Assembly (NCBI GenBank): GCA_964020085.1
Contig: OZ026607.1
Location: 21,368,606 to 21,432,605, forward strand
DNA length: 64,000 nt
From: Micromussa lordhowensis
Lineage: Eukaryota > Cnidaria > Anthozoa > Scleractinia > Lobophylliidae
Reading direction: 5' to 3'
Shown here: positions 35,992 to 57,563 of the stretch, in pieces
Position numbering within the stretch: the first letter of the stretch is position 1
Layout: each line of letters opens with the position of its first letter
Position numbers and translations under genes: made by a program
Notes under the pieces: generated by a model
The model's database searches: none
What the model was told of the DNA's origin: nothing
What the model saw: only the letters and a program-made list of their open reading frames with translations

Positions 35992-36002
35992 GACAAAACG
36001 GA

Positions 36003-40841: not shown

Positions 40842-40885
40842 GATCAGCGACACTCTTTACAAAAAAGTGTAAATGGTTTTTTTCA

Positions 40886-42258: not shown

Positions 42259-42392
42259 GTAATAAGAAATAAAAATAAAAAAATCATTCGTTTTATAGCA
42301 TTCAGTGAAGTCAATCAAATGTGATTGACAGTTCGTTTACATATAAAAAAATGGTATGGTATGTTGTTATTCAATTCATATTTGCTGTTATT
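42259..42392. promoter_or_regulatory. Divergent promoter between 42258(-) and 42393(+)
   Basis: ATATAAAAA at 42341-42349 faces right; GCTATAAAAC on the minus strand near 42292 faces left. GTGATTGACA at 42321-42330 recurs just upstream of the TATA box at 56281-56290, hinting at a shared regulatory site. Confidence 0.6.
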
Positions 42393-43828: not shown

Positions 43829-44943
43829 CTTTCACTATAACATTACCAAGTGACGCAAGTACCAGTATCTTTCCAGATAATAAAACCAATAACTACAAAG
43901 TCAAACTGGTCAATGAAATTCGATTAACTGAAGATGATTGGGAAGTGGCACTTCAAACGATTTCATTTCCAGACACAGAATCAGTGCTTAAAAGTTCCCT
44001 GCTTGGAAAGTATCCGTTTGTACAAAAGGTAGTTACACACTTTTCTGGTGACTTCGGCGAAAACGCTGATGGTACACCTAATCTTGAAGATCCAATTGGT
44101 TTGGCTAATAATGCATTTTATGTACGTGAGTCTATTTTGGATCTAGCAGACAACCCAGTCAGAGATGGATTGTCATTTTGGAAAAAGATAATTCAAAGGA
44201 CCAACTATGAATTCAATAACGGTCTACAACCTGACGAATTATTTACCAATAACACTGGGGATACAGGAATGCCTACTTACAAATGGGTGGAACGTGGAAA
44301 TCAATTTGATTTGATGATAGACAATGACTCACTTCATATATTAAATGATGGTTCTTACACAGACATTAGTCTACCCTTAGCAGAGGCTTTTGGATTAGTC
44401 AAAGAAGCTCGTGATTTTCGTGGAAATCCTTTCTGGATTCTCGGTGAATCCATTGAACTAATACATACTACTAAGCGAGGAACTAAAGTACCGGATCCTG
44501 CAGCATATGGTGTGGTAGATGTCCCTGGAAATCGGCGTGGAAGGTTTTGGAAAGTGATGACAGACGTTGCGACGGTTATGGGTAGACAAGATTATCTGAG
44601 ACTTTATGGATTTTGTAATTGGTACATCACAGACATCAATTCCAATTTCGAGAGAATCTTTGGAAATGAAACTCGAACATTGTTCATTTACACCGACGTC
44701 GCTCAACCACAGATCGTGGGTGGAAAGCAAACAGACATGATCAGAGAAGTCGTGTACACTAACAAGTTTAAAGGGCGTAGTCAATTTGAACCGTTACATT
44801 TACAATTCATTCCCATCAGAAAGAACGTCTTTGACACCATTGAAGTAGCTGTTAGTGAAGCAGATGGACAATTAGCGGATATTAGAGGTGGTTCAACAAT
44901 TTTGACATTACTATTCAAACGAAGAAGTGAAAAATTGCTATAA
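43825..44943 (+). CDS. Penton-base-like minor capsid protein
   Basis: 372 residues, starting MTFTITLPSDAST. It fits the single jelly-roll penton protein of Mavericks/adintoviruses by size, by position beside the integrase and upstream of hexon, and by composition: the N-terminal IFPDNKTNNYKVKLVNEI, then LTEDDWEVALQTISFP, and a C-terminal YTNKFKGRSQFEPLHLQFIP followed by FDTIEVAV. These N- and C-terminal beta-strand blocks are typical of this protein. It would form the pentameric vertices. It overlaps the integrase stop by four bases. Confidence 0.8.
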   Translation: MTFTITLPSDASTSIFPDNKTNNYKVKLVNEIRLTEDDWEVALQTISFPDTESVLKSSLLGKYPFVQKVVTHFSGDFGENADGTPNLEDPIGLANNAFYVRESILDLADNPVRDGLSFWKKIIQRTNYEFNNGLQPDELFTNNTGDTGMPTYKWVERGNQFDLMIDNDSLHILNDGSYTDISLPLAEAFGLVKEARDFRGNPFWILGESIELIHTTKRGTKVPDPAAYGVVDVPGNRRGRFWKVMTDVATVMGRQDYLRLYGFCNWYITDINSNFERIFGNETRTLFIYTDVAQPQIVGGKQTDMIREVVYTNKFKGRSQFEPLHLQFIPIRKNVFDTIEVAVSEADGQLADIRGGSTILTLLFKRRSEKLL

Positions 44944-44980
44944 AAGAAGAAGATACAGGATTACGATATTATTTGAAATC

Positions 44981-45559
44981 ATGGCCTTCATGTGTCGATT
45001 TTCAGACCATTCTTCCCATTTTTTCAAAGTACCGAGTACACGTCCATTCAGAAAAGGACCTTTTTTTCAAACCATTTTAGGATTAGATCGTTTACGCATT
45101 AAGCGCATTGAAGGAGAACTCGCTCTTCCATTATACCACGGTCAAAAGCAGGATTGGATTCAACATTATTATGGACCCACACAAAATCAACGACTTTACT
45201 ATGTGCAGAATGTACCAGAGACAATCCTGGAAGATGTGTTTCAGTTTTTACTGTTACTTCATTGGATCTCATGCAGTGACATTCCAATACCATTTGTAGG
45301 CCAAAAAGCTGTTCGATTCGTTTCTTCGTTACAGAAACGATTGCTAGAAATCAAAGAAGTCATGGGGCCCTTTGATACATCACTTCAACAACGAGACTAC
45401 CTGATGAATCAATGGCACATGTTCAGAGATGTAGGGCAAGCATTAATCTTGAACGGAAAACAACTAAAAGATGTTATGAAGGCATTTGAAAAAAGAGATG
45501 AATTCTTTTATATTTACATTTCATACATTGTAAGTTTATTCTTGGAAAAGTTAAAATAA
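44981..45559 (+). CDS. Adintovirus protein of unknown function, 192 residues
   Basis: ATG 44981 (MAFMCRFSD) has good context; a longer frame from 44927 overlaps the penton gene. It is largely helical, with a hydrophobic stretch VFQFLLLLHWISC in the middle and a C-terminal FFYIYISYIVSLFLEKLK that could insert in a membrane. It lies in the virion-gene block, so it may be a minor virion or morphogenesis protein. No family recognised. Confidence 0.65.
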   Translation: MAFMCRFSDHSSHFFKVPSTRPFRKGPFFQTILGLDRLRIKRIEGELALPLYHGQKQDWIQHYYGPTQNQRLYYVQNVPETILEDVFQFLLLLHWISCSDIPIPFVGQKAVRFVSSLQKRLLEIKEVMGPFDTSLQQRDYLMNQWHMFRDVGQALILNGKQLKDVMKAFEKRDEFFYIYISYIVSLFLEKLK

Positions 45560-45593
45560 AAAAGAAACGTTTCATGTTATTGTGGTATAAGTA

Positions 45594-45601
45594 TATAAGG
45601 C
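45594..45601 (+). promoter_or_regulatory. TATA box for core-protein pair
   Basis: TATATAAG, about 55-60 bases before the ATG at 45654. ATTAATAAAG at 45603-45612 just after it may be the polyadenylation signal of the upstream genes. Confidence 0.6.
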
Positions 45602-45653
45602 GATTAATAAAGTCACTTCTCATTATTTTTTTGTAAACGTAAAAAAGAGAATC

Positions 45654-45926
45654 ATGAGAGGTGGTGCATTGCGACTGTATAAACCAAATGGTGGTCAAAG
45701 AGGGCGAGGACTTGGTGGTGTCCTTCGAAAAGCAGGGACGAATTATCTAAAAAATTTAATAGTAACTAAATTGAAAAGAACTGCCAAAAGAAAAGGTCGA
45801 CAACTCTTGTCTTCTGCTGGGCGGAAAGTATCCAGATTATTGACTGGTCAATCGGGTGGAGCATTTTACAATAAAAGGCGAAGACGACGTCCACGTAGAC
45901 GAAGAGTTGATATATTTCAGTACTGA
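45654..45926 (+). CDS. Small basic core protein (adenovirus pX/pVII-like in character)
   Basis: 90 residues, very rich in Arg, Lys and Gly, with a terminal NKRRRRRPRRRRVDIFQY. It probably condenses the genome in the virion. GQSGGAF just before the Arg block looks like an adenain-type cleavage site (xxGG then x). The stop and the next ATG share one base (45926). Similarity is compositional; true homology to adenovirus core proteins is not shown. Confidence 0.7.
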   Translation: MRGGALRLYKPNGGQRGRGLGGVLRKAGTNYLKNLIVTKLKRTAKRKGRQLLSSAGRKVSRLLTGQSGGAFYNKRRRRRPRRRRVDIFQY

Positions 45927-46270
45927 TGGATTACCAGTTGAGAAGTCAAGGTATTGTACCCACAGTGAGTTTCAGAAATCCATACCGTAATGTAGGATTA
46001 GCTGTGAGAAGAACCGCTATGACAAGGCGTAAACAGAAAGGAGGTCAATTTACTTTGTTTTCACCAAGTTTAGTGGCTGCTTCCAAAAAATTAATACGTC
46101 AACGAAAACAAAGACGAAGAAAAAGAAGACAAAAAGGAGGTAACGTTTTCCTGGGTGCTGCAAAGATGGGGTATAAATTGGGTAAACAAAAAGATTATAA
46201 ACGGATGGGATTAACTGGTGCAGCGCAAAGTAGCTATCGACGAATTCCAGAGCCGTGGTTATATCAATAG
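45926..46270 (+). CDS. Second basic core protein
   Basis: 114 residues with two QKGG motifs (RKQKGGQF and RRQKGGNVF) separating basic blocks such as RQRKQRRRKRRQ. The QKGG pairs are likely protease sites that would release a small basic peptide. The one-base overlap with the preceding gene implies a shared transcript. It precedes the hexon gene, whose TATA box lies just past its end. Confidence 0.7.
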   Translation: MDYQLRSQGIVPTVSFRNPYRNVGLAVRRTAMTRRKQKGGQFTLFSPSLVAASKKLIRQRKQRRRKRRQKGGNVFLGAAKMGYKLGKQKDYKRMGLTGAAQSSYRRIPEPWLYQ

Positions 46271-46271
46271 C

Positions 46272-46280
46272 TATAAAAAG
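46272..46280 (+). promoter_or_regulatory. TATA box of the hexon gene
   Basis: TATAAAAAG directly after the upstream stop, 43-51 bases before the hexon ATG at 46323. Confidence 0.6.
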
Positions 46281-46322
46281 GAAAAAAAGAGACTTTTGGA
46301 ACATTCATTTTTTATTGACGAG

Positions 46323-47744
46323 ATGGCACAACCCATTCCAGCCCACGAGGCATCCGGTCAAACCGAAAATGCCGTTTTGGACCTTTTTACGGTTCCTGCA
46401 ACGGATACATCCATTCACAGTTACAGGATGGTGACCATTGATCCTACAAGCCGTAGCATTAATCCAGTGGAATTCAATATTCCTGGAGGTCGTGATTACA
46501 TAGATCTTTCACGAAGCTATTTTAAAATGGAATTTAAATTGACCAAAGCTGATGGGAACAATATTGTGGATGCAACAAACACGTGGCTAGCATCTAATGC
46601 GTTTCATACAATCATCAAACAACCTTCAGTTTATCTCAATGGCACCTTGATCACAGAGCAGACCGACACGTATGCGTACAAGGCATACTTGGAGACCATC
46701 ATGAATTATGACAAAGAAGCCGCTGAAACCTACTTGGAACCGCAAGGATTCTACTCAGCCATGGATCACACACCGGAAATAACCGCAACCAATATTAACA
46801 CTACAGCCAATGCAGGAGCTGGTCATGCTGACTATAATGCATTGAGTTCTGAAGCCAAAAAAGCGTTCACCAATGCTTGGAGGTTGAAAAATAGAATTAA
46901 AGATGGAAAAACCCTTCAATTGCTTGGGAAGCCACATATTGACATTTTCCAAGTGCGGCGTTTATTGGTGCCTTCAGTGGATCTCAAGATGCGGTTCACA
47001 TTGAATGAACCGTCCTTCTTCTGCAACGGTATTACAGATACCGCTATACTAACCCAGGAGAATTTCAAAATGGAGTTCATCGCTTGCCTAGTAAGAGTCA
47101 GATCTGACAAGTTCAATGACATCTCAGAAATGAGATTGAGGCAAATGAAATCTGTGTATTACCCAACAGTGCGATCAGAAATCAGATCATTCACCATCCC
47201 ATCCAATACCCGTACTTGGGAAGAAACAGACATCTTCAATGGACGTATTCCAGATCGTACCATAGTAGGATTAGTGCACCAAAATGCATACAATGGTGGT
47301 TACAAATGGAATCCATTCTCATTCCAAAAGTTTGGAGTTAAAAATATTAAACAAATCATTGAAGGGGAAGAATATCCCGATGAAGCCCTAGAAATGAATC
47401 ATGACAATGGTCAACTAGACATGGAAGGCTATTACCGCCTGATTACAGCTGGTTGTCTGAATGAAAATGGAAGAAGTATGTTAGCCTACAAGCATTGGGG
47501 ACAAAACAAAAACACTACATTGTTCATGTGGAATAATGTGGCTTCAGGCTGTCAAGAAAGTGATGACCTTAACCCACGACAACAAGGACGGTTAAAGATC
47601 TACTTGCAACTGGGGGATAATGTCAATCATGGCATCACTGTCATTATTTATGGTGAATTTGAAAACATGTTGGAAATAAAACCCACCGGCAGTGTGCAAT
47701 ACGACATTTACAGGCAACAGATGATAGTGGGTAGAGTGGATTGA
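46323..47744 (+). CDS. Hexon-like major capsid protein (double jelly-roll)
   Basis: 473 residues from ATG 46323 (MAQPIPAHEASGQ); the open frame to 46218 lies before the TATA box. It matches Maverick/adintovirus hexon by length, place between core proteins and protease, and sequence: an N-terminal VDPTSRSI-like segment (VTIDPTSRSINPVEFNIPGG), DYIDLSRSYFKMEF, an early receptor-like YLNGTLITEQTDTYAYKAYL and a late RSMLAYKHWGQNKNTTLF. The protein would form the trimeric capsomers of an icosahedral shell. Assignment is from family knowledge; no structure could be computed. Confidence 0.85.
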   Translation: MAQPIPAHEASGQTENAVLDLFTVPATDTSIHSYRMVTIDPTSRSINPVEFNIPGGRDYIDLSRSYFKMEFKLTKADGNNIVDATNTWLASNAFHTIIKQPSVYLNGTLITEQTDTYAYKAYLETIMNYDKEAAETYLEPQGFYSAMDHTPEITATNINTTANAGAGHADYNALSSEAKKAFTNAWRLKNRIKDGKTLQLLGKPHIDIFQVRRLLVPSVDLKMRFTLNEPSFFCNGITDTAILTQENFKMEFIACLVRVRSDKFNDISEMRLRQMKSVYYPTVRSEIRSFTIPSNTRTWEETDIFNGRIPDRTIVGLVHQNAYNGGYKWNPFSFQKFGVKNIKQIIEGEEYPDEALEMNHDNGQLDMEGYYRLITAGCLNENGRSMLAYKHWGQNKNTTLFMWNNVASGCQESDDLNPRQQGRLKIYLQLGDNVNHGITVIIYGEFENMLEIKPTGSVQYDIYRQQMIVGRVD

Positions 47745-47756
47745 AAAAACAAAGAC

Positions 47757-48302
47757 ATGGAATTCATACCATTTTCCACTACTCAATTGGAGTATCTTGC
47801 TAAGGACGATCCCATACTGAAACCGATTTTTAAAGGAGTCTTCGCCTCCGATCAATTACCTCAAAAACCAGAATTTATCAAACCTTGTGCCTACATTGTG
47901 AACACGGATCCCATTACGGAAGTTGGTAGTCACTGGTTTGGTATCTACACGGAACAAGGCAAATGTGAAGTGATGGACAGTTACGGAGTACCATTAAATT
48001 GGTACAGTCGATCCTTGGTCGTACCTTGGGTGATGGATAATTGGGAAAGCATATCAAGCAACGCCAAATCATTACAAGAACTAAATTCGAATTCATGCGG
48101 ACAATACGCATTGATGTATCTCAAGTACCGATGTCGTGATAAAAGCATGGAAGATTTTACTGGGCTGTTCAGCGACGATTATGTGGCAAACGATCATAAA
48201 GTGGGGAACATGATTAAAAAAGAAATTAAACAGAGTTTAAAAGATGTTGCTTATTTACCATGTCAACAGTATAATTTTACCTGTTGTTATATTGATATAT
48301 AA
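47757..48302 (+). CDS. Adenain-type cysteine protease
   Basis: 181 residues. It matures virion proteins. The catalytic set is visible: His59 in VGSHWFGIY, Asp74 in CEVMDSYG, and Cys114 in NSNSCGQYALMYL. The order and spacing are those of adenovirus protease (clan CE, family C5). Its likely substrates are the neighbouring basic proteins with QKGG motifs. It lies between hexon and ATPase, the usual Maverick arrangement. Confidence 0.92.
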   Translation: MEFIPFSTTQLEYLAKDDPILKPIFKGVFASDQLPQKPEFIKPCAYIVNTDPITEVGSHWFGIYTEQGKCEVMDSYGVPLNWYSRSLVVPWVMDNWESISSNAKSLQELNSNSCGQYALMYLKYRCRDKSMEDFTGLFSDDYVANDHKVGNMIKKEIKQSLKDVAYLPCQQYNFTCCYIDI

Positions 48303-48340
48303 ACAAGCAAAATCATTAAAAAATTAATTTATTGTACATC

Positions 48341-48988
48341 ATGAGTGTCTGTGAGTCTTTTATGTTCCGAAGCCCTTGCAGCATATTGGTGGTGGGACCA
48401 TCCAGTAGTGGAAAAACCGTATTCGTGGAACGCTTGTTACGAGAAAGAAACCAATTCTTTCACGGGAACACCTCTAAAGTTTATTATTGTTACGGAGCCT
48501 GGCAAGATAAATTTCATGGAATGAAACAGCGAGGCATACGATTTCATAAAGGCATTCCAACTGTCGAAGACATTCATAAATGGTTCAATGGGGGAGGAGT
48601 ACTGATATTAGATGACTTGATGGATGAAGGTGGGAATGATAAGACTATCTTGGATCTATTTACGAAACATTCTCATCACAATAATGTAACAGTACTATAT
48701 CTCTGTCAAGACATGTTCCCACCAGGAAAATATGCCAAAACCATCTCTAGAAATGCACATTACATCGTGGCGTTTAAAAATCCAAGAGATCAATTGGGGG
48801 TAAAAAACATGGTGTTACAAGCTTATCCTAGTGATTGGGAAGATGTCTTAGGAGTATATAGGGACGCCACAAGTCGGCCTTATGGCTATCTCATATTCGA
48901 CTTTCATCCTAATAGTGACGACGAGAAAAGACTGATAGCCAATATATTACAAGGAGAAGGCTTTACTACCACTTATACCTCATCATGA
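48341..48988 (+). CDS. FtsK/HerA-type genome-packaging ATPase
   Basis: 215 residues from ATG 48341 (MSVCESFMF). Walker A is GPSSSGKT at residues 19-26 and Walker B is VLILDD at 87-92. This is the A32-like family that pumps DNA into capsids of adeno-like viruses, Mavericks and nucleocytoplasmic large DNA viruses. A later LYLCQDMFPPG fits the sensor region. The stop overlaps the next ATG (ATGA at 48985). Confidence 0.92.
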   Translation: MSVCESFMFRSPCSILVVGPSSSGKTVFVERLLRERNQFFHGNTSKVYYCYGAWQDKFHGMKQRGIRFHKGIPTVEDIHKWFNGGGVLILDDLMDEGGNDKTILDLFTKHSHHNNVTVLYLCQDMFPPGKYAKTISRNAHYIVAFKNPRDQLGVKNMVLQAYPSDWEDVLGVYRDATSRPYGYLIFDFHPNSDDEKRLIANILQGEGFTTTYTSS

Positions 48989-49520
48989 GTGCTAAAAGTA
49001 GTACCGACAATGAAATTCAACGCTACAATACGACGTTTTACAATCAAGCACAAGCCCAAGGTTTTGATGTCGACAGCATACTGGATAGAGAATATCCATC
49101 CCCATTATCTCCAGTATCTCCTTCATATGGTCGCTATGACATTGATATAATATTTGAGCAAATGACACAATCTCCAAAAACATCAACACCCAAGAGCTCT
49201 ACTCCAAAAACACCAACACCAAAGAGCTCTACTCCAAAAGCACCAACATCTGGATCATCACCTGCGGGTGTGGGTTCACCTTCCCCCATTCCCCTATCTG
49301 CCTCATTTTATGGATCAGGACCTTCCCCTTCATTGCGTTCAACACCTTCAATTTCACCTTCAATATGGCAAAGACCGTTACGGCAAGTTAGAAAAAGAAG
49401 AGCGGTTCCAACATCACCTCCACCTATCACACCTCCTAGCACACCGCGTGGAAGACCCTCCAAAGCCTTGAGAAGAGGAGGGGGTAGACGAAGACGTGGT
49501 GGCCCCGGCCGCGACCCACC

Positions 49521-49566
<46 letters not shown>

Positions 49567-49872
49567 GGCGGCGGCGGTGGTGGTGGTGGTGGCGGCAGTG
49601 GTGGTGGTGGCAGTAGTGGTGGTGGTGGTCCAAGTGGTAGTAGAGGTAGTAATGGATCAAGACGAAGTGACGATACACCCACAAGTAGTGTTAGACGTCG
49701 TTATCGTCAACAAGATTTACTACGAGAATTACAAAGACTTCAACAGCAAAACATTCAAAAAATGCAAGGAAGACAAATTTCAGGAGTTACACACACCAAT
49801 ACCATCACCACGACCTACAAAGATGGTGGAAGACCTAGTGTAACACGTTCGAGTAATTCATTCTCACCATAG
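48985..49872 (+). CDS. Low-complexity Ser/Pro/Gly-rich virion-region protein
   Basis: 295 residues. The N-terminal 60 residues are of mixed composition; then come STPK/TPK repeats (PKSSTPKTPTPKSSTPK), a Pro/Ser-rich basic segment, a poly-Gly run from a GGC repeat, and a final helical segment (RQQDLLRELQRLQQQNIQKM) that could form a coiled coil. It is largely disordered. The position after the ATPase is where these elements carry variable minor virion proteins. It shares the 13-base start ATGAGTGCTAAAA with the integrase gene. Function unknown. Confidence 0.7.
49521..49630 (+). repeat. GGC/GGT trinucleotide repeat coding poly-Gly
   Basis: About 35 GGN codons, pure GGC at first and then mixed with GGT and a few AGT. 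It is likely length-variable and slippage-prone. Because its length is a multiple of three, the frame survives. Confidence 0.9.
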
Positions 49873-49876
49873 ATAC

Positions 49877-49884
49877 TATAAAAA
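49877..49884 (+). promoter_or_regulatory. TATA box
   Basis: CTATAAAAACA just after the stop of the Gly-rich protein, 40-46 bases before the ATG at 49923. Confidence 0.55.
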
Positions 49885-49922
49885 CAACATGACTATCAAA
49901 TTTTTTAAAATATTTTTTCAGC

Positions 49923-50237
49923 ATGGATAGAATCAAGAGACAAGTACCATTTTTACGTGCGATTGTATCTGCTAGTGAACGGAATAGAAGAAGAGATTTA
50001 CTCAAACATGCAAACAAAGATCAAATTAATGCCATCAGTGAAATCACACTCAATTTGCTACGAAACAACATTCCTGTGTCACCAATTACCATGGCCAAAC
50101 TTCGTCCGTTTCGAAATACATTACGACGTGTTGGAAAACGAAGCGTATCCCTTAAAAAGCGACGACAAGCCCTTATAAATCAGAAAGGTGGACGCTTTTG
50201 GTCTGGTTTAGGTACTATTGTAAAAAATTGTTGTTAA
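49923..50237 (+). CDS. Basic virion protein with QKGG site (pVI-like in character)
   Basis: 104 residues: a helical basic body (ERNRRRDLLKHANKDQINAI) and a C-terminal INQKGGRFWSGLGTIVKNCC. The conserved QKGG followed by a short amphipathic tail is typical of a widespread adintovirus/Maverick protein and suggests cleavage by the element's own protease, freeing a C-terminal peptide of about 14 residues. By analogy with adenovirus pVI it might help membrane penetration or protease activation; that is inference. Confidence 0.65.
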   Translation: MDRIKRQVPFLRAIVSASERNRRRDLLKHANKDQINAISEITLNLLRNNIPVSPITMAKLRPFRNTLRRVGKRSVSLKKRRQALINQKGGRFWSGLGTIVKNCC

Positions 50238-50244
50238 CAACAAG

Positions 50245-50883
50245 ATGTCAAAATACCGTAAAATGTACATGATCCCTGCGGAGGATCCCGAAATGGTGAG
50301 TTGGTTCAAAGGAAAATTAACTGAAGACCCTACCTTGGACACAGCTGCCAAACTATCGGCTAAAAAATTACGTATTTTGAAAAATCCAAGAATGTCAAGC
50401 GCTGAAAAACAAAGTTTGGTACAACAAATCAATCCGAAACTTCAAGCTTTGATCAAAAGGATGCGCCAATTACCACCAGGAATTAGCTCAGCAGTAGGAA
50501 TGATGGAAGAAGATGAAGATGAAGATCTCATCACACCAGTACAACAGAAATTATTACAACGTATTCTGAAAACAGTGACTCCAGCTAGAGCCACATCAGT
50601 GAAAACAGAACCCGTAACGCCAATGACAGAAACTCCAAAGAAAAAACCTCGAATAAGTCGCAAACAATTGGCATCAGAATTACCTTTCTTCGATGAGCCT
50701 ATTATAGAACAACCCACTCTGGAAGAAACAATTAAAAAAACATTAAGGAAATCTCGAAAACGAGTTGGTCAAGAAAGGCGTGAGCCAGCACCTCTCCGAA
50801 GGCTTAAAAGGGCTGAAGGATGGGAATCTTGGGAGCCATTAGGACGTGAGACAAGAAAACGATTATTTCCATCTTCTACGTGA
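50245..50883 (+). CDS. Conserved adintovirus/Maverick protein (virion-associated, MYMIPAED type)
   Basis: 212 residues starting MSKYRKMYMIPAEDPE, an N-terminal signature (KYRKxYMIP) that I associate with this group of elements. An acidic stretch (MEEDEDEDL) sits in the middle, then Thr/Pro-rich basic segments with possible phosphorylation sites and a nuclear signal (PKKKPRISRKQ), ending in an Arg-rich tail. It is likely a core or scaffold protein. It starts seven bases after the preceding stop, so cotranslation or leaky scanning is probable. Confidence 0.7.
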   Translation: MSKYRKMYMIPAEDPEMVSWFKGKLTEDPTLDTAAKLSAKKLRILKNPRMSSAEKQSLVQQINPKLQALIKRMRQLPPGISSAVGMMEEDEDEDLITPVQQKLLQRILKTVTPARATSVKTEPVTPMTETPKKKPRISRKQLASELPFFDEPIIEQPTLEETIKKTLRKSRKRVGQERREPAPLRRLKRAEGWESWEPLGRETRKRLFPSST

Positions 50884-50889
50884 ACAATT

Positions 50890-51255
50890 ATGGTTAGAGG
50901 AAGAAAACGAACACCACGACGAGTATACAAACAATGGGGAGGAAGAAAAAAAGGATTCGATATTCAAAAGATGATTGAAAAGACAGGAATTGAATTTCAT
51001 TGGCCTGGATATCAATACATGGGACCTGGTACCAAACTAAAAAAACGTCTAGCACGTGGAGATCCAGGCATCAACCGTCTTGACCGTATTGCCAAGCAAC
51101 ATGACATTGATTATTCAAGAGCAAAATCTTTACAGGACAAATGGAAAGCAGACACAAAAATGATCAAAGCCATTGATCAATTACCAGGCAAAAAAAAAAT
51201 AACAGAACGTGTTGTTAAAAATATCATGAAAGCTAAGAAACGATTAAAATTGTAA
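50890..51255 (+). CDS. Parvovirus VP1-type phospholipase A2 protein
   Basis: 121 residues. The calcium-binding loop GPGT at 45-48 and the catalytic HD at 71-72 within RIAKQHDIDYSRA give the secreted-PLA2 core in the form found in parvovirus VP1 N-termini (GPG...D..A..HD..Y). Asp65 and Tyr75 fit that pattern. The flanks are highly basic. Such domains open endosomal membranes during entry and are known in adintoviruses. It ends the rightward structural block. Confidence 0.88.
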   Translation: MVRGRKRTPRRVYKQWGGRKKGFDIQKMIEKTGIEFHWPGYQYMGPGTKLKKRLARGDPGINRLDRIAKQHDIDYSRAKSLQDKWKADTKMIKAIDQLPGKKKITERVVKNIMKAKKRLKL

Positions 51256-51380
51256 AATCAACATTTTTTTATTAAAACATTGTTGTACGTAAAAAAATCA
51301 ATTGTTGTACGTAAAAAACAATTGTTGTACAAGCATTGATTTACATTAAAAGCATTGCAAAAAAAGTTCCTTGCTGTCTT
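51256..51380. other. Spacer between converging genes
   Basis: TTGTTGTACGTAAAAAA-type direct repeats occur three times (51280, 51302, 51322). TTTTTTTATTAAAA near 51265 could supply AATAAA on the minus strand for RING1. No ORF. Confidence 0.5.
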
Positions 51381-51866
51381 TCATTCTTGATTAACATATC
51401 TTGAACGACACAAATCACTCCATATATTCACATGATAGTGTGTAACTAAATAGTTCGTGATGGCACGCATGCGAGCCAAAGTCTGCTCCTTGTTACACCC
51501 CAGGAACATCACATCGGAGGTATTAGAGGTTACGTTCCACATTTCACCATAAAAATAGCCATCGTTACCTCTCCATAAAGGACGATCACCCCATGCAGCT
51601 TTAGCGGCTCTCATAAACACGCGATCCTCGTAGAAAGGTTTGGACTCCATGGCGTTCTTGTAGTTGGAAACCATAATGTCAAAATTAACGCTGTTGATCC
51701 TGGTACGGCAGTAAGGGCATGTGATATCTGAGAAAGATTTGGTCTGCAGCTGTGTATGAAACCACCGATCAATACAATTGTAATGAATCGGTTGTTGACA
51801 ACAGGCGCTACTTGCTTCTGTGGTTGGGTAGAAGCAGATGATGCAATCGTCTTCTCCACTCGACAT
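51381..51866 (-). CDS. RING finger protein 1 (probable E3 ubiquitin ligase)
   Basis: 161 residues. The RING ligands are C8, C11, C22 or C23, H28, C31, C50 and C53, with a Trp after the H..C pair (HYNCIDRW) as in E2-binding RINGs. The remainder lacks a known domain and contains FLGCNKEQTLARMRAITNYL. It is divergently transcribed from RING protein 2 across a shared promoter, and the two RINGs have the same spacing style, so they are likely paralogues. Early modulation of host proteins is a reasonable inference. Confidence 0.85.
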   Translation of the reverse strand: MSSGEDDCIICFYPTTEASSACCQQPIHYNCIDRWFHTQLQTKSFSDITCPYCRTRINSVNFDIMVSNYKNAMESKPFYEDRVFMRAAKAAWGDRPLWRGNDGYFYGEMWNVTSNTSDVMFLGCNKEQTLARMRAITNYLVTHYHVNIWSDLCRSRYVNQE

Positions 51867-52154
51867 TGCGACACTCAGTGATGTTCAATGATGTTCAATG
51901 ATGCTGAATGTCAAATGCTCAGTGATGTTCAATCCCCCAAAATCGCCTTAGCTTTATAGTAAATAAAAACGTCATGTGACACTATGACGTAGACATCACG
52001 TGGTCATATTAGGGGGATGGGGGGGTATCCCCCCTTCTCAATATGAGATCACGTGATAGGTCACATGACCTTAATAAATCCTATATAAGAAGTAAACCAC
52101 CTTTGGAGATCATTTTCACAATTGTACGAAAACTCATTACGCTGAAAAACAAGA
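51867..52154. promoter_or_regulatory. Divergent promoter between the two RING genes
   Basis: TATATAAG at 52083-52090 faces right. TATAAAG on the minus strand near 51953 faces left. Module B (51971-52002) has the same orientation as at 40211-40241; module A (52010-52070) is inverted relative to 40148-40203. Short GATGTTCAAT repeats lie at 51880-51935. Confidence 0.75.
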
Positions 52155-52592
52155 ATGGCTGGCCGTCAGAGTAAAAGACTTCGTCTGGAAGCACCTGAAA
52201 TTCTACAAACCACTTTTCAATGTTTCATTTGTCATGGCACTTCATACACTTGCGATATGGGTACCATACAGCTAGCCTGCTGTAAAAACTTTGTGCATCA
52301 ACGATGTCAAGCTCGATGGCAAGCTGAAGGAAGAAACTGTGGAATGTGTCGAGGATCCTTAACAACTAATGTGGTACTCAGCGCAGGTGAATCCAATCCG
52401 ATTCGATCAGAAGACATTGACATTCCTACGGATTCTCTAAACTTTGACGAGATCACCCATGAAGTCTTGTCCATGTCCCGCGAACAAGTGATTGCCAGAT
52501 TGAGGGAATTATTGCAATCTGAAGAGTTAGAAGAACAACTACAACGTGTAAGTATTTTCTTCTTCTTTATCCCTATAAAAAAGTGGATCTAG
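52155..52592 (+). CDS. RING finger protein 2, shared head exon of the cassette array
   Basis: The coding exon is 52155-52547 (131 codons) if the donor at 52548 is used; reading through adds 14 residues (VSIFFFF...) to a stop at 52592. The RING ligands are C23, C26, C42 or C43, H48, C51, C62 and C65, with ARW after C51. The rest is acidic and helical, ending LRELLQSEELEEQLQR exactly at the donor. It is driven by TATATAAG at 52083 and a shared module promoter. Joined to one of eleven downstream cassettes it would make RING proteins with alternative tails, probably substrate-binding. The read-through form would be a tail-less protein. Confidence 0.85.
   Translation: MAGRQSKRLRLEAPEILQTTFQCFICHGTSYTCDMGTIQLACCKNFVHQRCQARWQAEGRNCGMCRGSLTTNVVLSAGESNPIRSEDIDIPTDSLNFDEITHEVLSMSREQVIARLRELLQSEELEEQLQRVSIFFFFIPIKKWI
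52548..52553 (+). promoter_or_regulatory. Strong 5' splice site (GTAAGT), phase 0
   Basis: ACAACGT then GTAAGT, placed exactly after codon 131 of RING protein 2. All eleven following acceptors open phase-0 frames. Confidence 0.8.
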
Positions 52593-52629
52593 ACCTTTTT
52601 TAAAAATATTTTTTTAAAAATTTTTTCAG

Positions 52630-52836
52630 ATGAGCACTCTAGAATTATCTACAGTATTTGCATTCAGAAGATTTATAGAACAAGTGGGGATACAATACAT
52701 TTGGATGCAATACAGTGATACAACTATTAGCTTTCGATTAGCCAATAATTATGAAGACATTCTTAATTTCTCATCTAATGCTGTTATAAGATTTAGTAGA
52801 CATTTACTCCCTATTTTACTAGCTCTCTTTTACTAG
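52630..52836 (+). CDS. Splice cassette 1
   Basis: The acceptor TTTTTTCAG ends at 52629. 68 codons then stop. The first codon is ATG, so it could also be translated alone. It is the closest relative of cassette 2 (shared TVFAFRR, QYSD, SFRLA and HLLP...LLAL segments), a recent duplication. It is shorter than the other cassettes and ends in a hydrophobic helix (HLLPILLALFY). Confidence 0.7.
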   Translation: MSTLELSTVFAFRRFIEQVGIQYIWMQYSDTTISFRLANNYEDILNFSSNAVIRFSRHLLPILLALFY

Positions 52837-52854
52837 CTCTTAAATTTTTTTCAG

Positions 52855-53049
52855 ATGAACACTATAGAATTATTTACAGTGTTTGCATTCAGAAGAATTA
52901 TAGAGCAAGTGAGGAATTACATACAGCAACAATACAGTGATGCAACTTTTAGCTTTCGATTAGCCGATGGTTATGAAGATATTTTTAATCAATCTAATAC
53001 TGTTCTAAGTATTCATTTACTCCCTCTTTTACTAGCTCTTATAAATTAA
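52855..53049 (+). CDS. Splice cassette 2
   Basis: The acceptor TTTTTTTCAG ends at 52854, only 18 bases after the stop of cassette 1. 64 codons, ATG first. Paralogue of cassette 1 with substitutions and a small deletion; it keeps the hydrophobic end HLLPLLLALIN. Confidence 0.7.
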   Translation: MNTIELFTVFAFRRIIEQVRNYIQQQYSDATFSFRLADGYEDIFNQSNTVLSIHLLPLLLALIN

Positions 53050-53059
53050 TTTTTTTCAG

Positions 53060-53377
53060 TTCAGTCATCGTCAAGCTAGGTTAGCTTGGATTTATGCATG
53101 GTGTATAGACCAACTAAATGAGCAAAGACCTGCACATCAAGTACACTTTATAATTGGAAATAACGATTTCCGTGATGTTGCAAATATGATCAGTGCAAGA
53201 CTAACAGGAAGATATATCATTCGATATTTTAATACATCTGTTATTGATTTTGATCATTTTTGTATTAGTTATCATCAAACAATTTCAATAACTTCCACTG
53301 TAGAAGAACTCGAAAGAACTATCAAAACTATTCATAGTAATGAAGTGTTTGCTGAACTCTTTTCTTTAGTTCGATGA
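53060..53377 (+). CDS. Splice cassette 3
   Basis: The acceptor TTTTTTCAG ends at 53059. 105 codons open in phase 0 with no ATG for the first 42 codons (FSHRQARLAWIYAW...), so independent translation would lose the first third. Pattern: helix, strand (QVHFIIG), helix (DVANMISARL), strand (RYIIRYF), strand (DHFCISYH). Its TGA lies inside cassette 4. Confidence 0.75.
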   Translation, partial: FSHRQARLAWIYAWCIDQLNEQRPAHQVHFIIGNNDFRDVANMISARLTGRYIIRYFNTSVIDFDHFCISYHQTISITSTVEELERTIKTIHSNEVFAELFSLVR

Positions 53378-53681
53378 TCAAGATCGAGCAGCTTTGTTAC
53401 TCTATAAACGTGCATTAACAAGGATGGATCCTTTTAGACAAGAATATCGTGTGAATCCACAAATCATATTTGTTAATACCAGGACTTATGGATCTCACAT
53501 TTTCAATAACATGGTGCAACATCTAACATTACAACATCGTTACATTCCTGTCTCAGTTATTGAATTTGAACACCCTCCCACCTATTATAATAATAATCAG
53601 ATCATATTGTCATGGTATAAAGATTTCAGAGCATACTATAATAATCAAATAAGTAGATTCAGTACACCACTTTTTCTTTAA
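53370..53681 (+). CDS. Splice cassette 4
   Basis: The acceptor TTTCTTTAG ends at 53369, inside the last codons of cassette 3, so the two overlap by eight bases in different frames. 103 codons (starts FDDQDRAALLLYKRALT). Helix, strand (QIIFVNTR), helix (HIFNNMVQHL), strand (YIPVSVIEFE), strand (QIILSWY). Confidence 0.75.
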   Translation, partial: FDDQDRAALLLYKRALTRMDPFRQEYRVNPQIIFVNTRTYGSHIFNNMVQHLTLQHRYIPVSVIEFEHPPTYYNNNQIILSWYKDFRAYYNNQISRFSTPLFL

Positions 53682-53689
53682 TTTTTCAG

Positions 53690-53974
53690 TGCACCCTGAG
53701 AGAACAAAGATGTCTATGCATTTACTATATTCATTTATGTAATTTACGCGTGAACAACTACCTTGTGCTCGTTATGGGAGAGCAGAATTTTATCACGTTG
53801 ATTGATCGAATTACTGATAAGGTTACTGTTACGGACGATATCTCAATTGACTTTCATCCTATACAATACTCAGGTGCTCCATATTTTATTTTTTTTCACA
53901 ATCAAATGCGATTCGACACCTATGGGTTAATCATGGGTCACACGAGATCAGACTTCCATTACTCAACGCAATAG
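53690..53974 (+). CDS. Splice cassette 5
   Basis: The acceptor ATTTTTCAG ends at 53689. 94 codons, starting CTLREQRCLCIYYIHL; ATG appears only at codon 29. Strand (YLVLVMGE), helix (FITLIDRITDKV), strand (DISIDFHPI), strand (YFIFFHN), the same order as its neighbours. Confidence 0.75.
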   Translation, partial: CTLREQRCLCIYYIHLCNLRVNNYLVLVMGEQNFITLIDRITDKVTVTDDISIDFHPIQYSGAPYFIFFHNQMRFDTYGLIMGHTRSDFHYSTQ

Positions 53975-54005
53975 ACTTAAATCTTTCTATTCTTAATTTT
54001 TATAG

Positions 54006-54281
54006 TTCATTCAAGGTTCACCATGGAAATTATTACGTGTGATTCATAAATTGAGACACTACCCTTCTTGGGAAGAAGAGGAACAAGAAGAAGTTCATTT
54101 TAGGTCCTGGACTAGACCAATTTTAAGCTATGACATCTTTTGTAGAGATCAAACTGTCGATTTTTTCCCAATATTACAAAATCTGACCCGGAAATTCATT
54201 GACGATTTAACTTTCGAGTTTGAAGTTCATTATTATAATACTACCAATAATTTTAAAGCTTGGCTTTTTGTTAATTACTAA
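54006..54281 (+). CDS. Splice cassette 6
   Basis: The acceptor TTTTTATAG ends at 54005. 91 codons, starting FIQGSPWKLLRVIHKL with no ATG in the reading frame. An acidic insert (WEEEEQEE) precedes the strand SYDIFCRD; helix DFFPILQNLTRKF; strands LTFEFEVHY and FKAWLFVNY. Confidence 0.75.
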   Translation, partial: FIQGSPWKLLRVIHKLRHYPSWEEEEQEEVHFRSWTRPILSYDIFCRDQTVDFFPILQNLTRKFIDDLTFEFEVHYYNTTNNFKAWLFVNY

Positions 54282-54301
54282 AGTTTTTTTATTTTTTTTA
54301 G

Positions 54302-54682
54302 TTTCCTTTTCGATTCTACAATCCACAACAAGTGAAACAGATCATAAAAACAATAATAGCCTTTGAAACAGGACCTGATATGAATTTGCAAGATCAAGCA
54401 TTAGCAAGAAGAAGCCATCTTGTATTAGGACGGCGTAGATTTCATATTGTTCTACGTGGTGGCTCCAATAACATTTCTTATTGTAAAAACCATATGAAAG
54501 ATTTCATTCATTTTTTAAATCCTTTTCGTTTTTTTTTGTCATTGGAATATCACACAGGATATTTTGATGATGAATTTGTCTACGAATTTGCTCACTTTGA
54601 ACTTTCCTCATTCAGTCACAAATACAATCTATTTAATCAAACTTTCAATCACTACAAAAGAAAATACACTTCATTTTCTTAA
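54302..54682 (+). CDS. Splice cassette 7 (longest)
   Basis: The acceptor ATTTTTTTTAG ends at 54301. 126 codons, starting FPFRFYNPQQVKQIIKTI. Strand RFHIVLRGG, helix KNHMKDFIHFL, the NPFRFFLSLEY strand, strand FVYEFAHFEL, then an extra C-terminal helix-like tail. Confidence 0.75.
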   Translation, partial: FPFRFYNPQQVKQIIKTIIAFETGPDMNLQDQALARRSHLVLGRRRFHIVLRGGSNNISYCKNHMKDFIHFLNPFRFFLSLEYHTGYFDDEFVYEFAHFELSSFSHKYNLFNQTFNHYKRKYTSFS

Positions 54683-54703
54683 AAAATCATTTTATTTTTT
54701 CAG

Positions 54704-55039
54704 TTTGAATACACAGTACAAGTACAAGATCTAAGAAGAATGTTAACATTTATTCTAAATCATACCTTACATAATGAATACCTTGACTCCGACAGAAATC
54801 GCATTGTGTTCTATCTTAATGGACATGTACGTAATCGATATCAACGAGATATGTCAAGGCTCGCACAATTTATTTTGCCTTTACATGTAGCATTTTATCT
54901 AACCCAAATGGGGAAACTATGTTTCATTTTTTCAGCAGCTGATGAAACTGCACCTGATTGGCTCCCAATCAATAAATATTGTTTAACATCATGTACTTAC
55001 AATCACACTGATTTTCATGATTACAGACATTTTCATTGA
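54704..55039 (+). CDS. Splice cassette 8
   Basis: The acceptor TTTTTTCAG ends at 54703. 111 codons, starting FEYTVQVQDLRRML. Strand NRIVFYLNGH, helix QRDMSRLAQFI, strand LHVAFYL, strand KLCFIFSAAD, then a His/Tyr-rich end. Confidence 0.75.
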   Translation, partial: FEYTVQVQDLRRMLTFILNHTLHNEYLDSDRNRIVFYLNGHVRNRYQRDMSRLAQFILPLHVAFYLTQMGKLCFIFSAADETAPDWLPINKYCLTSCTYNHTDFHDYRHFH

Positions 55040-55072
55040 ATATAAAAAAGTTGATGCATGGTATTTTTTTAG

Positions 55073-55399
55073 CTCCCTTTCAGATTTCATGGAGGAAACA
55101 TTTTATTCACCAAGGGAAACCTACTACCTAAAATCATAAATGAAATCATGACTTGGGATCAATGGTCAGCCACCCTACCTAATAATTTAATAGTTCGATT
55201 TTATTTTTTAATAGTAGGTCCAAGAAATGGACCTATAAATAACGACATGCATCAATTTTTTAATCTTTTAAGATTACCATTTCGTTATAAGATAAGAATC
55301 ATTTGGAATCCTATTTCAATCTTAGGGGATGGTTGGATGGTATATAATGTAGAACGCATTTTGATAACATGTAACTCTCTCTCGTTATTTTTCAGTTAA
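55073..55399 (+). CDS. Splice cassette 9
   Basis: The acceptor TTTTTTTAG ends at 55072. 108 codons, starting LPFRFHGGNILFTK. Strand VRFYFLIVGPRNG, helix NNDMHQFFNLL, LPFRYKIRII strand, strand GWMVYNVERI. The TAA stop overlaps the acceptor of cassette 10. Confidence 0.75.
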   Translation, partial: LPFRFHGGNILFTKGNLLPKIINEIMTWDQWSATLPNNLIVRFYFLIVGPRNGPINNDMHQFFNLLRLPFRYKIRIIWNPISILGDGWMVYNVERILITCNSLSLFFS

Positions 55400-55497
55400 C
55401 CTTAGAAAGAAGATTACGATATGCTAGACTTAGACTTAACTTACGTCTAATACGTGACGGTTACGGACACTTTGTACGAATCAATAACCCCTTTTAA
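55396..55497 (+). CDS. Splice cassette 10 (short)
   Basis: The acceptor TTATTTTTCAG ends at 55395. Only 33 codons, Arg/Leu-rich (LERRLRYARLRLNLRLIR). It is too short for the shared fold, so it is a decayed or minimal cassette, though its acceptor and phase are intact. Confidence 0.55.
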   Translation, partial: LTLERRLRYARLRLNLRLIRDGYGHFVRINNPF

Positions 55498-55514
55498 AAT
55501 ACTATTTTTTACAG

Positions 55515-55829
55515 TTGCCTTTCAGAATTCATCATATTAAAAATTTACACAGATGTATTTGCCAAACACTTTTACGTGTCATTAATGATCCTAGAGATGT
55601 CACTTTACATATTTACATAAACATGTTAGGGCCTAGAACTAGACAGTTTACTCAAGGTTCAATTTCAATGTCATTAGCAATGCATCATGTACATTACCTT
55701 TTACAACGTATGTTTATGCCTTGTCGTTATTCTATTCATTTATGCTGTGTTCCTCGTGGTAATACACTTTTCATTGCGGATTATCAAGTGTTATTCTATT
55801 GTATTCAAAAAGTGGAGACGATACATTAA
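55515..55829 (+). CDS. Splice cassette 11
   Basis: The acceptor TTTTTTACAG ends at 55514. 104 codons, starting LPFRIHHIKNLHRC. Strand VTLHIYINMLGPRTR (compare VGPRNG in cassette 9), helix MSLAMHHVHYLL, strand CRYSIHLCC, strand TLFIADYQV. ATTAAA at 55825-55830 overlaps the stop and could polyadenylate all isoforms. Confidence 0.75.
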   Translation: MPFRIHHIKNLHRCICQTLLRVINDPRDVTLHIYINMLGPRTRQFTQGSISMSLAMHHVHYLLQRMFMPCRYSIHLCCVPRGNTLFIADYQVLFYCIQKVETIH

Positions 55830-55836
55830 AAAATTG

Positions 55837-55844
55837 TATAAAAA
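55837..55844 (+). promoter_or_regulatory. TATA box
   Basis: TATAAAAA, 38-45 bases upstream of the ATG at 55882, directly after the cassette array. Confidence 0.55.
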
Positions 55845-55881
55845 CCCTTTGTGTGTAGCGTCTTCAATTTATTTTTTCATC

Positions 55882-56115
55882 ATGTCACAAGCAGATGGAA
55901 TGCTTACAGCGTTCAAACAATCCTATTCAGAAATTTTAACCCACATTGAAAGTATACAAATTCACTTGCAAGAAATGGAAGAAGAATTCCTTGAATTGGA
56001 ATCCATCCTAGAGGAGGTAAATCAAAGAATCATTATGCAAAGAAAAAATGATCCTGGTGTTGGTAGTAGCAATGGTGAATGGTCAGTACTATATCAAAAT
56101 AGTAAACAAGCATGA
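55882..56115 (+). CDS. Small coiled-coil protein, 77 residues
   Basis: It starts MSQADGMLTAFKQSYSEI (ATG 55882); the longer frame from 55687 lies in the array. The middle (IQIHLQEMEEEFLELESIL) has heptad-like leucines, so a coiled coil is likely. No family recognised. A weak donor (GAGGTAAAT) lies inside. Confidence 0.55.
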   Translation: MSQADGMLTAFKQSYSEILTHIESIQIHLQEMEEEFLELESILEEVNQRIIMQRKNDPGVGSSNGEWSVLYQNSKQA

Positions 56116-56133
56116 CATGATCGCAACTTGAAA

Positions 56134-56298
56134 ATGGGGAAAGTAATGTCAGTATTGCCACACATCCACGAACGACTAAAACCAAAAAAAGAAGAAGACA
56201 AAGAATGGTTATTCAAATCCAATCAAAAGAAAAAAACAAGTTGGTTAACTAAGGGATTGAAATGTCACAAAAATGAACGAGTGATTGACAGTGATTGA
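56134..56298 (+). CDS. Small basic ORF with possible myristoylation site, 54 residues
   Basis: ATG 56134, product MGKVMSVLPHIHERLKP... with Gly2 and Ser6, the N-myristoylation pattern, followed by a Lys-rich segment that could bind acidic membrane lipids. The stop TGA lies in a repeated GTGATTGACA site. No homologue recognised; it could be chance. Confidence 0.35.
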   Translation: MGKVMSVLPHIHERLKPKKEEDKEWLFKSNQKKKTSWLTKGLKCHKNERVIDSD

Positions 56299-56310
56299 CA
56301 CCGCATAAAC

Positions 56311-56317
56311 TATAAAA
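56311..56317 (+). promoter_or_regulatory. TATA box with upstream GTGATTGACA pair
   Basis: TATAAAA, ~37 bases before ATG 56354. GTGATTGACA occurs twice in tandem at 56281-56300 and also at 42321. Confidence 0.55.
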
Positions 56318-56353
56318 TCAGGATACATTTTTCCTACACATTCATTGAGCATC

Positions 56354-56695
56354 ATGGACCCATGCAAGGTAACTGATTCATGCCAGAACAATTTGAAAGA
56401 AGACAAAGAAAGGGAAGAGAATGAAGAATCTATCTCTTTATCAGTATTGATTCAACTAGTAGTCAATACAATCCTTTCCGAAGAAAAATTGGACATTGAA
56501 CTAAAAATGCTCAAGTACAGGAACAACTTATCTGACAAAATCTTATCCATGAGTGAGGAAGAGCATAAAAAGAAGCCAAATCTTAAAGAATTCTTTGAAA
56601 GTTTCAGAGCTGGATGGAATATCTGGAAAAAGGATGGTGAAGATAAAGAAGAAGCTTCCTTTAACGCCTTCCACAGCAGCATGTGTAAAGATTGA
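56354..56695 (+). CDS. Acidic small protein, first of two overlapping frames
   Basis: 113 residues from ATG 56354 (MDPCKVTDSC); a frame from 56345 starts too close to the TATA box. It is highly charged (EDKEREENEESISLS), then helical (VLIQLVVNTILSEEKLDIEL, FFESFRAGWNIWKK). It overlaps the frame ending at 56948. A GT at 56637 and the AG at 56720-56721 share phase 1 and would join the two frames. Function unknown. Confidence 0.55.
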   Translation: MDPCKVTDSCQNNLKEDKEREENEESISLSVLIQLVVNTILSEEKLDIELKMLKYRNNLSDKILSMSEEEHKKKPNLKEFFESFRAGWNIWKKDGEDKEEASFNAFHSSMCKD

Positions 56696-56723
56696 AACAT
56701 TGAGAAAGTATGATCCCACAGAC

Positions 56724-56948
56724 ATGTGTGAACTTGATAAACAAGTTTTGGACGGAATTATTCAAGAGTACTGGAATAGACCAGAAACAATGACTTTTGA
56801 TACATTCTTCTTTTCTGAATACTTTTTGGATGATTTTACCAAAAAAGAAATCATATACATGGATATCAATGGCGATATACCATTTCAATTGATTTATTTT
56901 CCTCAAGATGATAAAGAGTTCGCAGCAGCTAGAAATGACATTAAATAG
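56724..56948 (+). CDS. Acidic small protein or second exon of the preceding gene
   Basis: 74 residues if started at ATG 56724 (MCELDKQVLDG), or the spliced end of 56354-56636 via the CCCACAG acceptor at 56721. The sequence is protein-like (FDTFFFSEYFLDDFTKKEII, then MDINGDIPFQLIYFPQDD) with no known motif. The frame is open upstream to 56553. Confidence 0.5.
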   Translation: MCELDKQVLDGIIQEYWNRPETMTFDTFFFSEYFLDDFTKKEIIYMDINGDIPFQLIYFPQDDKEFAAARNDIK

Positions 56949-57041
56949 TTCCACTTTATTTGTAAATGTGTTATTTACATTAAATATCTGTAAAAAACAT
57001 ATTGTGTTGTTTCATTTTTTTTTAAAAAAAAAAAAAAAAAA

Positions 57042-57114
57042 TGCCACAGTGAGGATTCGAACCCCAACCTCAATGGCCACAACATTGCGTGCTAACCATT
57101 AACACTACTGTAGC
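57042..57114 (-). tRNA. tRNA-His (anticodon GTG)
   Basis: A full cloverleaf on the minus strand. Acceptor stem GCTACAG/CTGTGGC is complete (one G-U). The D arm is GTGT/GCAC with GG in the loop. The anticodon stem is CAATG/CATTG with loop TTGTGGC, anticodon GTG. The T arm is TGGGG/CCTCA with loop TTCGAAT. The discriminator is A. An 18-base T run directly follows on the transcribed strand, an RNA polymerase III terminator. It lies inside the viral element, ~270 bp from the right repeat. Confidence 0.9.
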
Positions 57115-57116
57115 TT

Positions 57117-57167
57117 TTCAGTAAGCTCAATGGTCGAATAATCCACTTGACCATCAAGCTCACTGAA
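57117..57167 (-). ncRNA. 19-bp hairpin immediately upstream of tRNA-His
   Basis: Arms 57117-57135 and 57149-57167 around a 13-base loop. In minus-strand RNA all 19 pairs form (16 Watson-Crick and 3 G-U). In plus-strand RNA those three become A-C mismatches. The structure ends two bases before the tRNA. Its function is unknown. Confidence 0.5.
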
Positions 57168-57231
57168 GGATTTGCTCAAACATTTAACATTATGTATGGT
57201 AATATATGGTATGTATTCGTTACAAAAAGAA

Positions 57232-57311
57232 GTGAGGTCAAGTGTCAAGACAGATGCGTGTTACAATTGCTCCCGCGCCCAGGACGATAATTCTGTCTTT
57301 CCGGACCTCAC
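57232..57311. ncRNA. Second imperfect hairpin
   Basis: GTGAGGTC...AAGACAG (57232-57253) pairs with CTGTCTT...GACCTCAC (57293-57311) around a ~40-base loop, with an internal loop. The size resembles a microRNA precursor, but expression is unknown. Confidence 0.3.
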
Positions 57312-57384
57312 ACTTTAGCATCCATTTTTTTCATGTCTATATAGGATTCAACTGATATTTTTGCCTCCTTGTGGTAGTCCGTTT

Positions 57385-57557
57385 TGTTGTGCGCAGGCGC
57401 GACTCGGCCCCAGTAGCGCACTCGGTATTCAAGATGGCGCTGGAATGGAATGTGAGAATGGAATGTGCTAGCTGCATTCTGATTGGTCCATTTTGGTCAC
57501 GTGGTATTAATCCTGCTCTCTGATTGGTTATGACCCACAGGCGCGTACTGTACTACT
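57385..57557 (-). repeat. Right terminal inverted repeat, 173 bp
   Basis: Reverse complement of 35819-35991 without a mismatch that I can see. It ends GTACTGTACTACT, followed by the ACTATT target duplication. Confidence 0.95.
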
Positions 57558-57563
57558 ACTATT
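57558..57563. repeat. Right target-site duplication (ACTATT)
   Basis: Matches 35813-35818. Confidence 0.9.

Follow-up and report, generated by a model that had tools for sequence, protein, structure and literature searches.

The joining of one common protein part to different ends by splicing is found in animal genes as well as in viruses. In Drosophila mod(mdg4), which lola resembles, the common head is a BTB domain. Viruses usually gain several proteins per gene via overlapping frames or a few splice forms, and in the early genes of the polyomavirus T antigens and adenovirus E1A/E4, a common N-terminal exon is spliced to different C-terminal parts. Herpesvirus ICP0 is a viral RING E3 ligase, a single polypeptide with a fixed targeting part. 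According to passages of PMC12692577, more than 30 isoforms of mod(mdg4) arise by joining common exons to alternative 3' exons. A window of 64,000 nucleotides (nt) from the coral Micromussa lordhowensis (GCA_964020085.1, contig OZ026607.1, positions 21,368,606 to 21,432,605 of the forward strand) contains an integrated adintovirus of the Maverick/Polinton type, in which a RING-like head exon is followed by eleven phase-matched tail cassettes that are probably spliced singly to the head, so that one gene would yield as many as eleven proteins, likely E3 ubiquitin ligases.

The array is mod(mdg4)-like in its working and is not a family member by descent, which implies a homologous BTB head, as the head here is RING-like. 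Both feature one common 5' head and many mutually exclusive terminal exons bearing the variable part, whereas mod(mdg4) is a host gene whose parts are joined in trans from independent promoters and the present 3.7-kb unit is viral, with a RING-like head and one donor. The shared N-terminal exon and differing C-terminal parts are also reminiscent of the T antigens and E1A/E4, but those genes give few isoforms, carry no eleven tandem dedicated cassettes and have a head other than RING. ICP0 likewise places a RING head in a viral regulatory protein, in contrast without exchangeable tails. We know of no viral parallel for this number of tails, and the listings of full-text literature searches, in a collection short of subscription articles and of the first adintovirus description, showed no viral array of such kind. 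What is new is therefore an alternative-terminal-exon gene in a virus, with a RING-like head and eleven tails, while the design itself is known from mod(mdg4). In the sections of PMC11071296 that describe adintoviruses, Adintoviridae are defined by a type B DNA polymerase (PolB) plus an rve integrase with a C-terminal chromodomain, and those sections make no mention of a RING gene or a spliced tail array.

The head, its predicted donor and the tail cassettes are as follows.

52155..52547, + strand: head exon, RING-like protein of 131 codons, invariant candidate ligands, basic N-terminus QSKRLR
52548..52553, + strand: predicted splice donor GTAAGT in phase 0, conserved in all 13 copies in the host genome
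52630..52836, + strand: tail cassette 1, 68 codons, opens with ATG at the acceptor; paralogue of cassette 2
52855..53049, + strand: tail cassette 2, 64 codons, opens with ATG at the acceptor; homologue in database protein P0002 from another contig, z 23.9
53060..53377, + strand: tail cassette 3, 105 codons
53370..53681, + strand: tail cassette 4, 103 codons; acceptor within the end of cassette 3
53690..53974, + strand: tail cassette 5, 94 codons
54006..54281, + strand: tail cassette 6, 91 codons, without ATG
54302..54682, + strand: tail cassette 7, 126 codons
54704..55039, + strand: tail cassette 8, 111 codons
55073..55399, + strand: tail cassette 9, 108 codons; paralogue of cassette 11, z 6.3
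55396..55497, + strand: tail cassette 10, 33 codons, without ATG; acceptor within the end of cassette 9
55515..55829, + strand: tail cassette 11, 104 codons

The original prediction, made from the letters of the window, of a RING exon ending at a GTAAGT donor after codon 131, with eleven acceptors opening phase-0 frames of 33-126 codons to private stops, holds at every site: GTAAGT lies directly 3' of the 131-codon head, and all eleven acceptors are present and open. A single donor is thus followed by a set of acceptors in matching phase, and each of them leads into a coding exon that ends at a private stop. Read without splicing, the head meets a stop at 52592 after 145 amino acids (aa). In 11/11 cassettes phase 0 gives a longer frame than either other phase, and this frame reaches just 0-11 codons 5' of its AG, so that the acceptors mark where the open frames begin. 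Cassettes and stops total 3,054 nt in a 3,200-nt span if the overlaps of cassettes 3/4 and 9/10 are counted twice. Owing to these overlaps, the later acceptor tract lies inside the earlier coding end, so that the polypyrimidine tracts of cassettes 4 and 10 (53345-53377 and 55375-55399) also encode the ends of cassettes 3 and 9. The accompanying claim that cassettes hold no good donor needs one qualification, a weak donor-like GTGAGG at 52909 in cassette 2; the GTAAGT at 52548 is otherwise the sole site in 52501-56000 with GTRAG followed by T, A or G. Ending at a private stop and lacking a good donor, each tail would serve as a terminal coding exon.

Chance offers a poor account of this layout. 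By an acceptor score that is our own simple weighting and not a trained model, 10 of the 11 listed acceptors ranked in the top 25 of 166 AG sites scanned, with 55073 outside. Eight of the 11 top-scoring AGs lead into 60 or more open codons in phase 0; seven of these are listed sites and the eighth, 52837, is an upstream start of the cassette 2 frame. In 400 first-order Markov sequences, the mean number of such AGs was 0.17 and the maximum 2, none reaching the observed eight. A single frame as long as 126 codons is not rare by itself (5/400 sequences).

The head matches 21 places in the host genome (580.8 Mb): 13, among them the window, show 95-100% identity, and the other 8 show 33-39%. In the 13 close copies, the eleven cassettes and their order are unchanged apart from damage by insertions or deletions: L015 is without cassettes 10 and 11, and L015, L016, L018 and L020 carry other broken cassettes. 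In total, 135 of 143 cassettes retain an open frame of 90% or more of the reference length, counting cassette 1 of L012, which reads on to 98 codons after a 14-nt deletion. The loss of acceptors in close relatives, or cassettes evolving without coding constraint, had been named as outcomes that would speak against the array, and neither was found. The donor is intact throughout and AG is kept in 141/141 cassettes present, with little power given near-identical copies. The pooled ratio of nonsynonymous to synonymous polymorphism (pN/pS) in the predicted frame of the cassettes is 0.36 (59 synonymous and 84 nonsynonymous; Fisher p 6.5e-9), demonstrating purifying selection, compared with 0.89 and 0.81 in the other two frames. 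The head shows 0.26 versus 0.96 and 1.01. Small indels number 16 per 261 nt between cassettes and at stop codons versus 9 per 3,021 nt inside, two of the latter in frame; the approximately 20-fold higher density between cassettes may come partly from slippage in T runs.

These data bear on whether the cassettes are instead eleven separate small genes with their own start or a spliced leader, whose acceptors take a trans-spliced leader or nothing. Cassettes 1 and 2 have ATG exactly at the acceptor, which departs from the earlier statement that many cassettes lack an early ATG, and several TATA-like words occur within the array. Trans-splicing of alternative 3' exons is, moreover, known in animals from mod(mdg4), as stated in passages of PMC12692577. 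Elsewhere that statement stands: cassettes 6 and 10 have no ATG, and the seven others are open from the acceptor with the first ATG at codon 13-43. The 311 codons that precede the first ATG, or lie in ATG-less cassettes, are under purifying selection in the phase of the head donor (pN/pS 0.40; 15 synonymous and 23 nonsynonymous, p 0.0065), while the other frames give 0.62 and 0.71, neither significant. Such stretches are translatable only via an upstream start, such as that of the head, or via a non-ATG start. Together with the phase shift in a second lineage described next, this makes separate genes a very improbable account.

Splicing of the head to tails gains independent support from the more distant relatives in the same genome. 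Group E adintoviruses, with capsids 40-41% identical, contain a related head adjoining the phospholipase gene. All eight related heads, namely L025-L028 (donors picked by eye) and L042, L043, L045 and L046 (found independently by RING motif), have an AG/GTAC donor after the first base of a glycine codon, that is, in phase 1; L026 and L027 are too decayed or rearranged for placement in group E. The group E head continues in frame into a tail 1, which is interrupted by a stop in L028. In 6/6 loci that have a tail 2 (L025, L028, L042, L043, L045 and L046), a polypyrimidine acceptor then opens it for 100-148 codons in phase 1, where the other phases open at most 60 codons, and it is the best-scoring AG in five of the six. 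The two tails are paralogues (z 25.8), and both are under purifying selection in the predicted frame, with pN/pS of 0.30 and 0.46 for tails 1 and 2 (five loci) against 1.00-2.71 in other frames (1.00 and 1.51 for tail 2). Donor and acceptor have thus changed phase together, which speaks against separate genes. In L021 and L022, whose heads show 39% identity, head and tail share one frame with no intron. One fused tail, two tails and eleven tails form a series, which could be read as growth from the first to the last.

The age of the arrangement can be gauged from database proteins. Four proteins, P0001-P0004, match the head and retain its sequence through residues VS, which are encoded by GTAAGT. 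P0001 is a near-identical copy of the type in the window and continues into the same intron, while P0002, P0003 and P0004 diverge directly after VS. P0002, from an element whose head is 64% identical, reads through an intron without in-frame stop and via FFQ, which fits TTYTTYCAG, into the homologue of cassette 2, indicating that the donor and the first tail predate the split of the two elements. In such a relative, unspliced RNA would give a head-tail fusion too. Single-cassette searches covered cassette 7, which had one match among 5.8 billion proteins, P0005, on the same largest contig as P0001, and 13 matches in its own genome, all 13 inside arrays. No relative emerged when viral contigs were scanned with the head, with the capsid protein or with an alignment of heads.

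The assignment of the head starts from eight candidate zinc ligands, C23, C26, C42, C43, H48, C51, C62 and C65, which are invariant in five sequences and include the C-x2-C pairs at both ends that are expected of a RING. A head profile searched against the PDB listed 21 sequences at E up to 0.1, of which 20 are named RING E3s or APC11; the last, EL5, is a RING E3 as well. The best relative is RLIM (E 1.7e-4). The AlphaFold2 model of the head reached a predicted local distance difference test (pLDDT) score of 58. Given the RING-like head, ligase activity appears likely, and the divergence of the tails suggests different targets.

Several results weigh against the array as a source of ligases with spliced tails, and those on the head side concern its class. 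The adjacency of C42 and C43 is an unusual RING spacing, and zf-RING_2, the sole Pfam match at E up to 0.1, scores 16.5 bits (E 0.01) versus a cut-off of 27.3. For these two reasons we call the head a variant RING, or RING-like. They would also suit a head that, with tails spliced as proposed, is a zinc-binding scaffold or transcription cofactor whose tails set location or partners, comparable to other early proteins of small DNA viruses, and the basic N-terminal motif present in the heads of three lineages is in keeping with that role. However, the closest solved relatives by sequence are RING-type E3s, and C-x-I-C and W55, which are known E2-contact positions of RINGs, are invariant in the five sequences. 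A non-ligase head is accordingly considered unlikely, and a ligase head is preferred.

On the tail side, pN/pS ranges from 0.00 to 1.18 per cassette and is about 1 in cassettes 1 (1.18) and 3 (1.05), with 0.74 in cassette 8; three nonsense variants lie within cassettes. Clear paralogue pairs are limited to 1/2 and 9/11, so that cassettes 3-8 and 10 show no firm sequence kinship to other cassettes, apart from weak z values of 3.4-3.8 for cassette 3 with 4 and 7. With the scarcity of recognisable duplicates and the mere 33 codons of cassette 10, these values could mean that no more than one or two tails are ever joined to the head and that the remaining cassettes are decaying remnants of tandem duplication. 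Remnants would collect stops and frameshifts evenly, though, whereas the cassettes are nearly all open, and 9/11 have pN/pS below 0.75 under the low pooled value. Decay of most tails therefore looks distinctly doubtful, and a maintained set of eleven is favoured. The remaining points on this side are general. As the array copies are 97.1-99.8% identical to that of the window, with about one change estimated by us for 24 splice-site bases, unchanged acceptors are weak evidence. No spliced head-tail protein occurs among the 5.8 billion proteins, with longer proteins allowed, in a database seemingly composed of open reading frames (ORFs) called on contigs. The AlphaFold2 model of cassette 11, the sole tail tried, built with 8 aligned cassettes, has a pLDDT of 56 and the order beta-alpha-beta-alpha-beta-beta, and Foldseek gave no match at E 0.001, for which reasons no fold is claimed. 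Finally, most regions in other adintovirus groups had no RING gene by a simple motif search, which can miss variants, in 18 right-hand regions taken from 93 capsid matches: 0/8 in group D, where motif matches lay in PolB, 0/3 in group F, 0/2 in group G and 4/5 in group E. The expectation of RING genes followed by AG-started open frames in other adintoviruses is borne out in group E.

Common origin of all tails was also considered. Profiles of cassettes 1/2, 9/11 and 3/4/7 and of the tails of the other lineage retrieved no further cassettes above shuffled decoys save one, cassette 7 with the 9/11 profile (E 0.04), so the profile searches do not show it. Pfam gave nothing convincing for the ten cassettes other than cassette 10.

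With pooled purifying selection and the second lineage behind the predicted layout of one RING head, a single donor and eleven phase-matched tails, a route of expression can be proposed in which two further features take part.

52013..52103, + strand: putative RING-gene promoter region; TATATAA at 52082
55825..55830, + strand: ATTAAA, a candidate poly(A) signal common to all tails that overlaps the stop of cassette 11

An element of ~77-90 nt within 52013-52103 recurs inverted before the PolB gene (40113-40203), TATA-like box included, and is a candidate common early promoter, so the RING gene is probably early. Transcripts would begin from the 52082 TATA box, and in each mRNA the donor at 52548 would be joined to one of the eleven acceptors, so that the alternative lies in the 3' splice site. 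Every transcript would finish close to the ATTAAA at 55825, a putative shared 3' end directly followed by a GT-rich stretch; a separate TATAAAA, at 55837, belongs to the gene that follows. One strong donor, cassettes devoid of good donors and the terminal ATTAAA fit one pre-mRNA with alternative acceptors and a common 3' end. Unspliced RNA would yield a tailless RING protein of 145 aa. The predicted products are up to eleven likely E3 ubiquitin ligases with tails setting the targets, where ligase function and target choice by tails are drawn by analogy from what RING heads do in known proteins.

A bolder reading is that the adintovirus keeps a library of exchangeable substrate-binding tails, grown from one fused tail to two and then eleven, with which many host proteins are degraded per infection; we put its chances at about even. 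If the array works as proposed, eleven tail exons behind one catalytic head would form a compact, extendable ligase repertoire, the virus would share its design with host genes of the mod(mdg4) type, and the tails would be a source of new host-protein binders. As one-, two- and eleven-tail forms are held in one genome, array growth is open to direct study.

The element that houses the head and tails spans ~21.7 kb.

35819..57557, no strand assigned: integrated adintovirus element with 173-nt terminal inverted repeats and 6-bp duplication

The terminal inverted repeats (35819-35991 and 57385-57557) are identical over 173 nt, with the two mismatches of the 180-nt arms both beyond this part, and they are flanked by the target duplication ACTATT (35813-35818 and 57558-57563). 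Identical repeats point to a recent insertion. In common with Adintoviridae, the provirus encodes PolB (36267-40151, - strand; PF03175, E 8.2e-47) and an integrase with a C-terminal chromodomain (42746-43828), whose rve domain is above the cut-off (E 2.1e-12) and whose Chromo domain has E 1.1e-4 at 22.5 bits versus a cut-off of 25.1. Besides the terminal repeats, it also has an adenain-like protease, a packaging-type ATPase, a phospholipase A2 and a second RING protein. The hexon-type capsid candidate, 46323-47744, was assigned by size and order and had no sequence match in Pfam or PDB. Its 93 matches in the host genome fall into several groups (~46, 40, 36 and 33% identity), many without stops, and represent a rich set of such elements within a single animal genome.

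Adjoining the capsid gene block, 48985-49872 encodes a 295-aa protein with a long glycine run amid proline/serine-rich and basic stretches. In the flanks of the provirus, the window contains three single-frame G-protein-coupled receptor ORFs and one TGF-beta ORF, which mark the host as an animal. The phospholipase A2 domain protein (50890-51255; PF08398, E 3.4e-12) shows 70-84% identity in groups D, E and F of the genome, whereas capsids are 36-46% identical. Convergent with the phospholipase gene lies that of the second RING protein (51381-51866, - strand, 161 aa; PF13639, E 8.7e-6), which has its own tail within one frame and occupies the spot where group E adintoviruses hold their head-tail gene.

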